From IMG/VR virus record IMGVR_UViG_3300048687_000061, positions 1-27,740 of that record: a DNA stretch of 27,740 nucleotides; one strand, given 5' to 3'. Source of the DNA: a virus. The position numbers were made by a program, and so were the translations under genes. Shown here in pieces: positions 23,356-27,203 of the stretch. Positions within the stretch are counted from its first letter, which is position 1. Every line of letters begins with the position of its first letter. The notes beneath the pieces are model-generated. The model had not been told where the DNA came from. It made no database searches and saw only the letters and a list, made by a program, of their open reading frames with translations.

Positions 23356-23443
23356 GGTAGATGACCGGGTAGATAGCCCGGTAGATGGCGGTAGATGAGC
23401 CGGTAGACACGCAGGTCAGGCGGCGGTAGACGGTGCGGTAGAC
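23356..23443. repeat. Array of seven GGTAGAY repeats, ~12-bp period
   Basis: GGTAGAT at 23356, 23368, 23380 and 23390 and GGTAGAC at 23402, 23425 and 23437 (start positions). Spacings are 12, 12, 10, 12, 23 and 12. Each is preceded by C or G, giving an 8-bp unit [C/G]GGTAGA[T/C]. All lie in the same orientation. The two right-hand copies are inside the last codons of the 203-aa gene and one straddles the region before its stop; the rest are non-coding. Iteron-like; see findings. Confidence 0.75.
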
Positions 23444-24027
23444 GTCTCCTCGGTGGCGACCGGGGAAGGGGCCAGATCCACGCGGCGGACGCCCCTCGTC
23501 GGGCCCTTCCCGCCGGCCTTCACCTTGGGGTGGACGGGGATGCCCAGGGCCTCCAACTGCGCGCGCAGATCGGACACCTGCCAGGAGGCCGTGAGGGCCT
23601 CGGTATCGGGGCGCTCCTGGAGGTGGTCGAGGACGGTGGATAGGTGCACCGCGGAGTCGCTGCCCATGAGGGTGAGCAGGAGGGCGCGCATCGTCTCCCC
23701 AGGGGTCGCCGTCGTGGAGGGTTCGGCGACCGGTTGCTCGGGCGTGTGGCCGGCCTTCCAGGCGGCCCGGCACCACAGGGCGGCGAGGAGTCCGAGGAGC
23801 CAGGGCAGCGCGCGGATGATGCCGTACGTGACGTAGGCGAGCAGGCCGACGAGGAGGAGCCGGGCGAGGGGGCCGAGGGCGGCCTTCCACCCGGTGAGGT
23901 CGTCGCGGCGACCCGCGCGGATCCAGGCCGTGAGGCGCGTGGTGCGGCGCTGCCAGACGACGGCGCTGCCGCGGGCGAGGCGGTCGGCGGCGTGCGCGCG
24001 GGCGGCTCGGACGAGGAGGCGCTTCAC
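23416..24027 (-). CDS. Membrane protein with C-terminal winged-helix-like part
   Basis: 203 aa, GTG 24027 overlapping the previous stop (GTGA). A very basic N-terminus (VKRLLVRAARAHAADRLARG, QRRTTRLTAWIRAGRRDDL) precedes two hydrophobic helices (LGPLARLLLVGLLAYVTYGIIRALP, WLLGLLAALWCRAAW). A soluble domain follows (MRALLLTLMGSDSAVHLSTVLDHLQ, DLRAQLEALGIPVHPKVKAGGKGPTRGVRRVDL) that reads like a small winged helix. The last codons overlap a repeat array. Last gene of the cassette. It resembles Streptomyces plasmid or ICE spread proteins in layout, without a certain family match. Confidence 0.65.
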   Translation of the reverse strand: MKRLLVRAARAHAADRLARGSAVVWQRRTTRLTAWIRAGRRDDLTGWKAALGPLARLLLVGLLAYVTYGIIRALPWLLGLLAALWCRAAWKAGHTPEQPVAEPSTTATPGETMRALLLTLMGSDSAVHLSTVLDHLQERPDTEALTASWQVSDLRAQLEALGIPVHPKVKAGGKGPTRGVRRVDLAPSPVATEETSTAPSTAA

Positions 24028-24533
24028 AGCAGGCCCGCCCCCTCGACGCTGCCGCGGAGCACAGCGCCAGCCTGGTTGATCAGGTCGGGCAGCCAGTTCA
24101 GCGCCGAGGCGACCCCGGCCGTGAGGCACAGGCAGACGCCGCAGAAGATCCCGCCGACCATGCGCTTGCGCTCGTCCTTACCTGCGGACCGGTACGCGAA
24201 GATCGTTGCGCAGGTGATCAGGAAGACGATCACGGCGCCCTCGGGGGTGAGCTGGCCGAGGCTCCCGTGCGTGATCGCGGCCTCGGAGGTCTTGCCGGTG
24301 GCGGCCTGAACTCCCTTGCTGCCGCCGGTGTTCGCAGCGCGCGCGGAGCATCCGGCGAGCCACCCGAGGATCCCGCCCGCGCACATCGTGGATACGGCGC
24401 CGAGCAGGGAGCCGAGCCCGAAGCTCTTGAGCTTGGCGGGGTCGCGGTCACCCTTCCACCAGGGGCGCAGGTTCGCCCACAGGACGACGAGGACGATCGC
24501 GACGCCCGCGAAGGTGAGGCCGGTGCCGGTCAT
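24024..24533 (-). CDS. Multi-spanning membrane protein of the Spd-like cassette
   Basis: 169 aa, ATG 24533 in an ATGA overlap. One N-terminal helix (LTFAGVAIVLVVLWANL), a charged linker (RPWWKGDRDPAKLKSFG), then three or four further hydrophobic segments (GSLLGAVSTMCAGGILGWLAG, GAVIVFLITCATIFAY, MVGGIFCGVCLCLTAGVASAL). The loop AANTGGSKGVQAATGKTSEAAITHGSLGQLTPEG resembles phage/plasmid membrane proteins of actinobacteria. No enzyme motif. Probably part of a membrane complex with the products of the overlapping genes. Confidence 0.65.
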   Translation of the reverse strand: MTGTGLTFAGVAIVLVVLWANLRPWWKGDRDPAKLKSFGLGSLLGAVSTMCAGGILGWLAGCSARAANTGGSKGVQAATGKTSEAAITHGSLGQLTPEGAVIVFLITCATIFAYRSAGKDERKRMVGGIFCGVCLCLTAGVASALNWLPDLINQAGAVLRGSVEGAGLL

Positions 24534-25093
24534 CGGTGGACTCCTGTGACGAAGGTGATCGGGTCGAACCAGTCGAGGACGCCGAGGCTCCCGATCGCGG
24601 TGGTGATCAGCGCGAGGCGGAGCAACCACCGCTTCCGTCGTAGGTCGAGCAGGTACGTGGCGGCGAGGGCGACGGCCGCGGTGGTGTAGGCGCCGCCGAT
24701 GGTGTCGGCCCGCATCTCGTGCAGGACGCGAGCCCAACCGGTGGCCAGGGACCAGCCGTTGAAGAGGGGTAGGACGCTGACAGCGCCGGCCGTGAAGGTG
24801 TGCCACGGTCGGATCCACTGCCACAGCCACGCCCAGTTGCGGCGCTCGCGGGGCTCGGTGTCGGGCGCGGGCTCCGGGGTGCGGCGCGGGGCCCTCTTGG
24901 GGCGCGGGGCGGGCTGGTCGGTGTTGCTGTCGAGGATGTCGTCGAGCCAGTCACGGGCGCGCGGCTCGAATCCTGCGGGCAGGTGCGCCGGAGTGGCCGG
25001 GAGCGCCTGCTCGTCGGCGTCGGGGCCTACGCCTGCTCTGCGGAGGAGGAAGCGGACCCTCTTCTCGTCGGGCCCGGGGCGGGTGTTGGTCAT
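24530..25093 (-). CDS. Membrane protein with cytoplasmic N-terminal domain, Spd-like cassette
   Basis: 187 aa, ATG 25093 in an ATGA overlap with the 458-aa gene. The first 90 residues are soluble and charged (RPGPDEKRVRFLLRRAGVG, PAGFEPRARDWLDDILDSN, then a Pro/Arg linker). Next come WLWQWIRPWHTFTAGAVSVLPLFNGWSL and further helices (GGAYTTAAVALAATYLLDL, WLLRLALITTAIGSLGVL), about three spans. The family is not recognised. Order and overlaps indicate a stoichiometric partner of its neighbours. Confidence 0.65.
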   Translation of the reverse strand: MTNTRPGPDEKRVRFLLRRAGVGPDADEQALPATPAHLPAGFEPRARDWLDDILDSNTDQPAPRPKRAPRRTPEPAPDTEPRERRNWAWLWQWIRPWHTFTAGAVSVLPLFNGWSLATGWARVLHEMRADTIGGAYTTAAVALAATYLLDLRRKRWLLRLALITTAIGSLGVLDWFDPITFVTGVHR

Positions 25094-26466
25094 GGGGTGG
25101 GCCTCTCGGCGAGGGCGTCGCGTACCTGCTCGGCGCGCGGCTGGCCAATGTGGAGTGCCTTCTTGAGGGCGCGGATCGAGGCGGGGCGGCCGCGGTGGGT
25201 GCGCCTGTACTCGGCGTCGAACTTGGTGGCGCGGTCGAGGAGTGCGGCGGGTACGTCGCCGTCGGGTACGCGGACGTGTACCTCGTCGCGGGTACGGTCC
25301 GCGGCGAGTACGGGTACGGGCGCGGCCATCGGGTTCGGGATGGCATCGGTCAGGGCGAGATCGAGGACGAGCCCCTTCGATGGCACGGCCTCTGTCTCGG
25401 GAAGTACGGGCGCCGGGTGTACCTGCGCAGGTGGGGCCGTGATGCGGGCAGCCATGCGTACCTGCGTCTCGGACACGGGTACGCCGTGCTGGGTACACAG
25501 CGCGGCGATCTCGGCGGGCGCCTTGGTGGGGTGCGCGGCGAGTACGCGGAGGACTGCGTCCATCGGGTCGAGGCGCCGGAGTTCGGCGCCGGCCACACCG
25601 AGTGGCGTGGCCGGGTGCGGCTCGTCGAGTACGGGCGTACTCGCCCACGGGGACACGAGAGGTACGGTCGCGAGTTCGTCCGAGGTACGGCGCGCGGCGA
25701 GTTCGAGGAGCAGCCGGTGGCGCTGCGCTCCGTCGGTGCCGGCGCCGGAGCGGGCCACGGCCGCAGCGAGGCGACGGCGGGCCCACGCGCGACGCTTGGG
25801 TCGTGAGGCGAGGCGCACGGCGCGCGCGGTGGCGCGGTCGCGGGTGATCTGCTCCGCGGTACGGTTCCGCGCGGCGAGCCCGAGCCGGGAGAGCAGCCGC
25901 TCGCGCAGCTCGCGGCCGATCATCGGCAGGAGACCGGACGACAGGGCGGCCGGGCGGGCGACGCGGATCTCCAGGCCCATGGCGAGGTGCCACAGCATGC
26001 CGGCCATGACGGGGCCGATGACGGCGCGGACGGTGCCGCCGACGAGCCCGGACTCGGCGTAACAGGGGATGACGAGTACGGCGGTGATGAGCCACATGAG
26101 GAGGCCGGGCACGCCGCCGGTGCCTGCCTGCTCGTCGGTGGTGGTCGCGGCCTTATGGGCGCGGGCCATGATGCCGCAGGCGAGGAGGGCGAGTTCGGCG
26201 GCGGCGAACATGGCGGCGCGCTCGGTGGCGTCGGCCATGTCGAGCCAGTTCTTGGCGAACCGCCAGCTGGTGTCGCCGCTGTAGGCGGTGCAGACGAGGG
26301 CGCCGGCCGCGGCGACGAGGACCGCGGCGGGCGGGCGGCGCGTGCCACGGAGGGCGCGGGCGACGCGGCGCAGCGCGACGGCGCCGAGGATGAGCCCCAC
26401 GACGGCGGCGACTATGGCCGGCCGCGGGTTGGCGACCGCCCACTCGGTGAGCTGGTCAACGATCAC
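25090..26466 (-). CDS. Large membrane protein, DUF2637/SpdB-like, with C-terminal HTH-like region
   Basis: 458 aa, GTG 26466 after CTGGAG. Residues 1-175 hold five hydrophobic helices (AIVAAVVGLILGAVAL, AVLVAAAGALVCTAYSG, AAMFAAAELALLACGIMA, GLLMWLITAVLVIPCYAES, AVIGPVMAGMLWHLAMGLEI), a layout like DUF2637 proteins of Streptomyces plasmids. A basic cytoplasmic part follows with DAVLRVLAAHPTKAPAEIAALCTQHGVPVS and, at the end, GRPASIRALKKALHIGQPRAEQVRDAL, both HTH-like. It is probably a membrane-anchored DNA-binding transfer or spread protein. The gene is also unusual for its density of GTAC tetramers (25122-25685). Confidence 0.65.
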   Translation of the reverse strand: MIVDQLTEWAVANPRPAIVAAVVGLILGAVALRRVARALRGTRRPPAAVLVAAAGALVCTAYSGDTSWRFAKNWLDMADATERAAMFAAAELALLACGIMARAHKAATTTDEQAGTGGVPGLLMWLITAVLVIPCYAESGLVGGTVRAVIGPVMAGMLWHLAMGLEIRVARPAALSSGLLPMIGRELRERLLSRLGLAARNRTAEQITRDRATARAVRLASRPKRRAWARRRLAAAVARSGAGTDGAQRHRLLLELAARRTSDELATVPLVSPWASTPVLDEPHPATPLGVAGAELRRLDPMDAVLRVLAAHPTKAPAEIAALCTQHGVPVSETQVRMAARITAPPAQVHPAPVLPETEAVPSKGLVLDLALTDAIPNPMAAPVPVLAADRTRDEVHVRVPDGDVPAALLDRATKFDAEYRRTHRGRPASIRALKKALHIGQPRAEQVRDALAERPTP

Positions 26467-26826: not shown

Positions 26827-26854
26827 GTTAGACCCTAGGGTCTAGCCCGTGCAA
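26827..26854 (-). promoter_or_regulatory. Candidate leftward promoter of the membrane cassette
   Basis: Minus strand: TTGCAC (26854-26849), then TCTAAC (26832-26827) after 16 bp or TAACGT (26830-26825) after 18 bp. The spacer and -10 are occupied by the first palindrome, so a bound regulator would block it. Confidence 0.5.
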
Positions 26855-26868
26855 GACCCTAGGGTCTA
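26829..26868. promoter_or_regulatory. Twin palindromic operators in a divergent promoter region
   Basis: TAGACCCTAGGGTCTA at 26829-26844 is a perfect 16-bp palindrome. AGACCCTAGGGTCT at 26854-26867 repeats its central 14 bp, and the match to copy one extends to the A at 26868. Centres are exactly 24 bp apart. A candidate plus-strand -10, TAGAGT (26867-26872), overlaps the right copy. Probably bound by the 97-aa HTH protein encoded downstream. Confidence 0.8.
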
Positions 26869-26909: not shown

Positions 26910-27203
26910 GTGAGCGAGCAGGTCGAGGAGGTGCGTCGACTCTTGGAGGCCATCGAGCGTCTGGAGCAGATGCAGGACGACGAGGCGTGCGCGAGGGCTG
27001 TGACGCAGGTGCTCGACACCTGGCCGGATCACCACGCGCGCCTGCGGGAGCTGCGCCAGGAGCGGGTCCAGCGGATGAAGGATGCTGGGATGACGTGGGC
27101 ACAGATCGGCGAGGTTCTCGGCGTGCACTACACGCGGGCACAGCAGATCGCGAAGGGGATGCGCGGCACCAAGCGCCCCAAGAAGGATGACGGCGACGCG
27201 TAG
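26910..27203 (+). CDS. Small HTH regulator divergent to the membrane cassette
   Basis: 97 aa, GTG 26910 with GGAGGG upstream. The N-terminal half is a helical, acidic dimerisation-type region (EQVEEVRRLLEAIERLEQMQDDEACARAVTQVL). Then RLRELRQERVQRMKDAGMTWAQIGEVLGVHYTRAQQIAKGMRG is a clear helix-turn-helix of the sigma-region-4/HTH_23 sort, with W-A-Q-I-G as the first helix. It is well placed to bind the twin palindromes at 26829-26867, which cover both its own promoter and that of the cassette, as an autoregulating repressor with a Kor-like role. The name of the family is uncertain. Confidence 0.75.
   Translation: MSEQVEEVRRLLEAIERLEQMQDDEACARAVTQVLDTWPDHHARLRELRQERVQRMKDAGMTWAQIGEVLGVHYTRAQQIAKGMRGTKRPKKDDGDA

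Follow-up and report, generated by a model that had tools for sequence, protein, structure and literature searches.

A short-motif array inside the gene of a predicted membrane protein of actinobacterial mobile elements covaries with the protein's own helix-turn-helix

The array-bearing gene and its surroundings

The stretch of DNA analysed here, which we call the window, is the whole of the 27,740-bp virus record IMGVR_UViG_3300048687_000061, in which terminase, portal, capsid and tape-measure genes are present. On its minus strand, a gene at 25090-26466 encodes a predicted membrane protein of 458 amino acids with a C-terminal helix-turn-helix (HTH). No match to this protein reached the cut-off in Pfam, NCBIfam or PHROGs, and a profile search against the PDB gave nothing. 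Hydropathy points to several membrane spans within a hydrophobic N-terminal region (about residues 9-167; 25966-26442), which forms the conserved module of the family described below. A sequence pattern places an IGQ-type HTH at the C-terminus (residues 429-452, ASIRALKKALHIGQPRAEQVRDAL; 25111-25182), and we propose it as the reader of the array. A second, internal stretch also appears HTH-like (residues 300-342; 25441-25569); it is an unlikely reader because it occurs as well in two family members without GTAC arrays, L004 and L055.

The array itself occupies 25122-25688 on the same strand and consists of 18 oriented sites with a GTAC core and a consensus near CGGGTACG, distributed over several codon phases. 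Two further GTAC sites outside this main array, at 25859 and 26076, complete the 20 in the gene.

The gene heads a series of overlapping genes, all on the minus strand, whose products are small. It is followed by a gene for a predicted membrane protein of 187 amino acids (24530-25093), in which GTAC stays at background and whose relatives adjoin 42 of 118 family genes. The next two encode proteins of 169 (24024-24533; phrog_16379) and 203 amino acids (23416-24027; phrog_5650), both matching PHROGs of unknown function. On the other side, a divergent gene for a 97-amino-acid HTH protein lies on the plus strand (26910-27203). Between it and the array operon, the palindrome AGACCCTAGGGTCT occurs twice, at 26830-26843 and 26854-26867, and this doubled element looks like a repressor operator.

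GTAC excess within the gene

The original prediction described 18 GTAC tetramers packed into about 570 bp of this gene, in different codon phases but mostly as GTA followed by C, and proposed that the DNA word itself is favoured and not an amino acid. All of this held up. The 567 bp from 25122 to 25688 do contain 18 tetramers, compared with 3.5 per kb elsewhere in the window and at most 8 in any other stretch of that length. GTA accounts for 13 of the 21 valine codons in the gene's 3' half, each of the 13 being followed by C, while the remaining sites read CGT ACC, TGT ACC, AGT ACG and GAG TAC. The background is itself raised (112 GTAC in the whole window versus 47 in a dinucleotide shuffle), presumably through G-ending codons preceding the tyrosine codon TAC. 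Yet the excess goes beyond synonymous-codon nulls: 2000 shuffles of the gene's own synonymous codons gave a mean of 10.3 and a maximum of 17 tetramers, and codons drawn with the usage of relatives a mean of 2.9 and a maximum of 9, against the 20 observed. Own-codon shuffles together with the neighbour-gene control given below thus dispose of codon bias as an explanation.

The flanks of the tetramer are informative as well. In the array, the two neighbouring bases are both pyrimidines or both purines (Y-GTAC-Y or R-GTAC-R) at all 18 sites, whereas the rest of the window splits 42 to 52 in the same test (Fisher 3e-6 for the difference). Among the tails of the GTAC class of the family, tail meaning the part of a gene after the conserved membrane module, the most frequent six-base form is CGTACC/GGTACG and CGGGTACG is an enriched eight-base word. 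The GTAC tetramer is a mere core of a longer oriented site, roughly CGGGTACG, and we regard it as almost certain that the excess represents a functional site array.

Other explanations offered by the original prediction fared differently. A plain palindromic GTAC methylation or restriction motif is at odds with the orientation of the flanks, with the confinement to one gene and with the other words that relatives have in its place. An origin in a GTAC-biased genome does not fit either, as the density of CGGGTAC in the tails of the genes is 67 times that in the remainder of the GTAC-class loci. The suggestion of a spread protein-binding motif, on the other hand, comes close to the explanation we favour.

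Distribution of the family and its motifs

We collected 118 non-redundant full-length relatives from genomes and viral contigs, with plasmid homologues in addition. This unnamed family shares an architecture of predicted membrane part, linker and C-terminal HTH. The 118 members are found in phages and in FtsK-type and relaxase-type elements, and a sample of 295 Streptomyces genomes yielded family genes in 90; distant members reside on plasmids of Streptomyces, Kitasatospora, Pseudonocardia, Prauserella and Mycobacterium. Genetic settings vary accordingly, comprising phage structural genes, FtsK-like genes, relaxase genes and, on plasmids, the vicinity of ParA, and a tyrosine integrase is encoded in 28 of the 44 viral records.

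The GTAC excess is common to close relatives (L002, L052, L053, L054) and distant ones (L060, L067). With 21 sites, L002 keeps 16 of the 20 site positions of the window gene, and L053, with 24 sites, keeps 9 of 20; the sites of the array turn over in position while their number is maintained. According to the original prediction, homologues lacking the excess would count against it. Two members about 50% identical, L004 and L055, do literally lack it, but taking them as a refutation would be misleading, as a homologue that lacks GTAC usually carries a different motif, one matching a different HTH.

These other motifs emerged when k-mer counts in the tails were compared with synonymous-codon draws. 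Strongly enriched words, found in several reading frames and on either strand, include CGGGTAC, CGGATGC, CGGGTGC, CGGGTAG, CGGGGACC, GGACCGA and CGGAAC. A z of 7 is exceeded by 47% of the tails from the 118 family genes, compared with 0.1% of 1112 neighbour-gene segments and none of the 118 membrane parts. Most members bear a dense array of a short motif in the part encoding linker and HTH. Protein repeats do not account for it in the GTAC class, in which 27 of 34 tails have no self-repeat of 30 nt or more; the GGGACC-class tails do contain some internal repeats, with a median of 24% of the tail.

For the plasmid homologues L161, L164, L165, L167 and L171 no clear array was found, a verdict that does not extend to L169 and L173. 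The strongest array of the survey is that of L172:3306-5444, a remote homologue from a plasmid of Streptomyces olivoreticuli, in which 28 copies of GGGAACC contrast with 0.6 expected and use every frame and either strand.

Covariation of motif and helix-turn-helix

When motif density is tabulated against the class of the C-terminal HTH, the table is nearly block-diagonal: GGGTAC, GGATGC, GGGACC, GGACCGA, CGGAAC and TGACCA each accompany a single type of HTH. We examined this with a held-out test, in which the motif was learned from the other class members, tail relatives of at least 70% identity were excluded and the left-out gene was scored. GGGTAC was observed 336 times versus 27 expected, with 33 of 34 genes significant. 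Every left-out gene was significant for GCATCC (129 versus 15; 15 of 15 genes), GGGACC (456 versus 78; 20 of 20), the GGACCGA class (138 versus 41; 7 of 7) and TGACCA (41 versus 9; 8 of 8). The test was weaker for the MerR-like, APSYVH and LSRDL types, and in two small classes, the RAVLR- and GQMTA-type HTHs, it returned no significant motif. The HTH classes are sequence patterns picked post hoc, a freedom that the held-out step reduces without removing.

A comparison at the level of residues was possible for 49 IGQ HTHs with the pattern S-I-R-x-L-K...IGQ. Lysine or arginine as the sixth residue is paired with GGG and glutamine with GGA, which dominates in 11 of the 15 cases and is mixed in 4 (Fisher 5e-8); isoleucine or valine at the second position goes with TA and leucine with TG (Fisher 3e-11), and loss of R/K/H at the third position with a final G beside C (Fisher 5e-7), although these P values overstate the case because the sequences are related. 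Only 3, 4 and 2 independent pairs lie on well-supported branches; nearly all agree on average and none is opposite, and with so few of them significance is out of reach.

The motif covaries with the protein's own HTH. Some association is to be expected from co-inheritance, since HTH and array adjoin in one gene. A tree of the membrane module shows many changes of HTH class and places L067, which has an IGQ HTH and a GTAC array, among members with other HTHs.

DUF2637 counterparts

In phage VWB, a gene related to the downstream gene is present, and the place of the family gene is occupied by gp24. The membrane module of VWB gp24 is Pfam DUF2637 (PF10935) and unlike that of the family, whereas the HTHs are alike (LKRTK..IGQ in VWB gp24, LKRAK..IGQ in the family member L078). 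The second half of the VWB gene contains the word of L078, CGGGTGC, 15 times versus 1.0 expected. Both VWB gp24 and Kromp gp82 match PF10935, for which the window protein gave no match above the cut-off. The gene of phage Kromp gp82, a weak match (L175:3341-4297), has 20 copies of CGGACA versus 4.2 expected.

The DUF2637 proteins resemble the window protein in combining a membrane module, a linker and a C-terminal HTH, and in having mobile copies with arrays; they differ in the membrane module and in that the conserved chromosomal copy of Streptomyces is mostly without an array, L191 and L196 excepted. DUF2637 genes sampled on smaller contigs bear an array in most cases. Among six further plasmid genes of this type, a modest TATCCA excess is seen in L229 and L230 and at most a weak one in L232, with nothing clear in L227, L228 and L231; plasmid counterparts are situated behind ParA and ParB-like genes. 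In the chromosomal-type gene L191, GTTCACA is present in 9 copies that perhaps reflect a protein repeat, and its paralogues have no array.

Proposed mechanism and known systems

We propose that about 20 oriented sites have been written into the part of the gene encoding linker and HTH, by means of synonymous codons and a permissive linker, and that the gene's own product is their most likely reader, with its C-terminal IGQ-type HTH binding the sites. On the strength of the sequence comparisons, we hold this identity of the reader to be highly probable. The N-terminal part would be seated in the membrane while the HTH holds the array, and the DNA of the element would be docked at the membrane, or gathered in one patch, at a single locus. 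Such docking could help the DNA to segregate in hyphae, to spread through the mycelium or to reach a transfer machine. Elsewhere in the family, HTH and array have changed in step. We judge the explanation as a whole, an array within the gene that is bound by the gene's own HTH and docks the element DNA at the membrane, to be reasonably likely; for membrane docking in the service of segregation or spreading, we consider the case evenly balanced.

The closest precedent is SpdA2/sps of plasmid pIJ101, where the specific sites of a DNA-binding protein lie inside its own coding region (PMC4170104). A synonymous change of the sites and a deletion of the gene lower plasmid stability equally, and SpdA2 and its in-gene motif are required for segregational stability and not for transfer (PMC4170104). 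Because this precedent serves segregational stability, segregation is the leading function to examine. Several plasmid homologues near ParA can be counted in support of the proposal; the need for plasmid-like segregation is not obvious in the viral records, most of which have integrases.

Both systems involve a protein of Streptomyces mobile elements with sites within its own gene, proposed here from covariation, so that the principle of in-gene sites for a gene's own product is already known. The differences are equally clear. The sps element is a single conserved 12-bp palindrome, CGTCACGTGACG, present 1-3 times and paired with a small SpdA, whereas here 10-30 oriented sites are combined with a predicted membrane anchor, and the enriched words differ from that palindrome, are lineage-specific and change with the HTH. 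The membrane proteins SpdB and SpdB2 of Streptomyces elements (pIJ101, pSVH1), likewise encoded in overlapping gene runs, are another point of comparison. SpdB2 has been reported to bind DNA in a manner described as non-specific (PMC4170104). As a candidate relative, pIJ101 spdB was rejected: it has no array, and its product matches neither the family nor the DUF2637 profile.

Alternative explanations

The array might instead be a partition centromere for another reader, a ParB-like protein or another factor of element or host, and lie in this gene by chance. A cluster of sites beside or in the gene of a DNA-binding protein is indeed a feature of ParABS- and ParMRC-type systems. ParA is near on several plasmids, where the family gene or its DUF2637 counterpart lies behind it, and in some cases a ParB-like gene upstream could provide the reader. 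However, ParA was detected in none of the 44 viral records, the window among them, the window protein has no ParB-family match in Pfam or NCBIfam, and its predicted membrane anchor sets it apart from these systems. No neighbour gene is common to all array-bearing classes across the 118 loci. The upstream 97-amino-acid HTH gene, considered as a reader in its own right, has relatives in just 11 of them. With the motif tracking the gene's own HTH, in VWB gp24 too, we find a centromere for another reader unlikely.

A loading site for a DNA translocase of the FtsK/TraB kind, comparable to clt, would share with the array its clustered, short, element-specific repeats and a reader encoded nearby (PMC3583192). 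The motif is similar in length to the 8-bp TRS repeats of TraB from Streptomyces plasmids, and in pWTY27 TraA binds repeats that are partly within its own gene (PMC3583192). Some elements do have FtsK-like genes near the array (L060, L067, L119). In L060 the N-terminal part of this gene (L060:8643-10733) contains 7 more copies of CGGGTA(C), and the FtsK-like gene of L067 likewise carries CGGGTAC; both are among the few exceptional neighbour genes, and at these two loci the translocase gene may hold a continuation of the array. But the reader of clt is the translocase itself, and the 34 GTAC-class loci yielded an FtsK-like neighbour in just 3 cases; no such gene was detected in the window or in the records of L052, L053 and L054, although any of these four records may be a fragment. 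Arrays are found next to relaxases and in phages as well. Because the motif follows the HTH of a different protein, VWB gp24 included, and most GTAC-class loci have no FtsK-like neighbour, we lower this possibility to an improbable one.

Alternatively, the protein's own HTH could bind the array for autoregulation, repressing or blocking transcription of its own operon. The sites lie within the gene and upstream of the overlapping downstream genes, and the same covariation of HTH and motif would apply. Ten to thirty sites across hundreds of bases, none of them on the promoter side, would nevertheless be atypical for a repressor, as would a membrane anchor, and autoregulation appears improbable to us as well.

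A phage packaging signal is made less plausible by the array-bearing relatives beside relaxases and FtsK-like genes and on plasmids. An artefact of codons or composition, of protein repeats or of GTAC methylation or restriction, for which one could cite the enriched GTA codons, the palindromic tetramer and the internal repeats of some GGGACC-class tails, can practically be dismissed given the outcome of own-codon shuffling, the oriented flanks, the spread over several frames and both strands, the GTAC-class tails without long self-repeats, the unrelated words in other lineages and the mostly arrayless conserved chromosomal DUF2637 genes.

Implications for mobile elements

Beyond the window, we lean slightly towards a broader reading, in which phages, plasmids and conjugative or mobilizable elements of actinobacteria share a large class of proteins that are anchored in the membrane, bind DNA and have their multi-site docking locus within their own genes. 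Coevolution of HTH and array would proceed through changes of single bases and through the exchange of modules, and the arrays would act as identity tags of their elements, as one-gene centromeres or docking sites. Such coevolution would mean that the protein sequence of the linker is partly dictated by a DNA signal, with the overlapping signal shaping this part of the coding sequence in several frames. Dense, lineage-specific arrays that change with the HTH were not described in the papers covered by our literature search, mostly those outside subscription.

If the protein's own HTH reads the array, the window protein should prefer CGGGTACG and a protein of the L102 type CGGATGCG. A docking device complete in itself, with the DNA tether and the target of that tether supplied by one gene, would then be common to the temperate phages, the plasmids and the mobile elements of Streptomyces, in which the segregation and spreading of DNA in hyphae are poorly understood. 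In the paired changes of HTH residues and sites, nature would have carried out an experiment on DNA recognition, from which the incompatibility of elements could be predicted.

One Streptomyces genome offers a further observation on the location of these elements. In Streptomyces sp. NBC_01016, matching array-bearing copies of the gene (L002 and L003), whose protein is 83% identical to that of the window, lie near the ends of two contigs of 5.9 and 4.1 Mb, which suggests that the element sits in the terminal inverted repeats of a linear chromosome.
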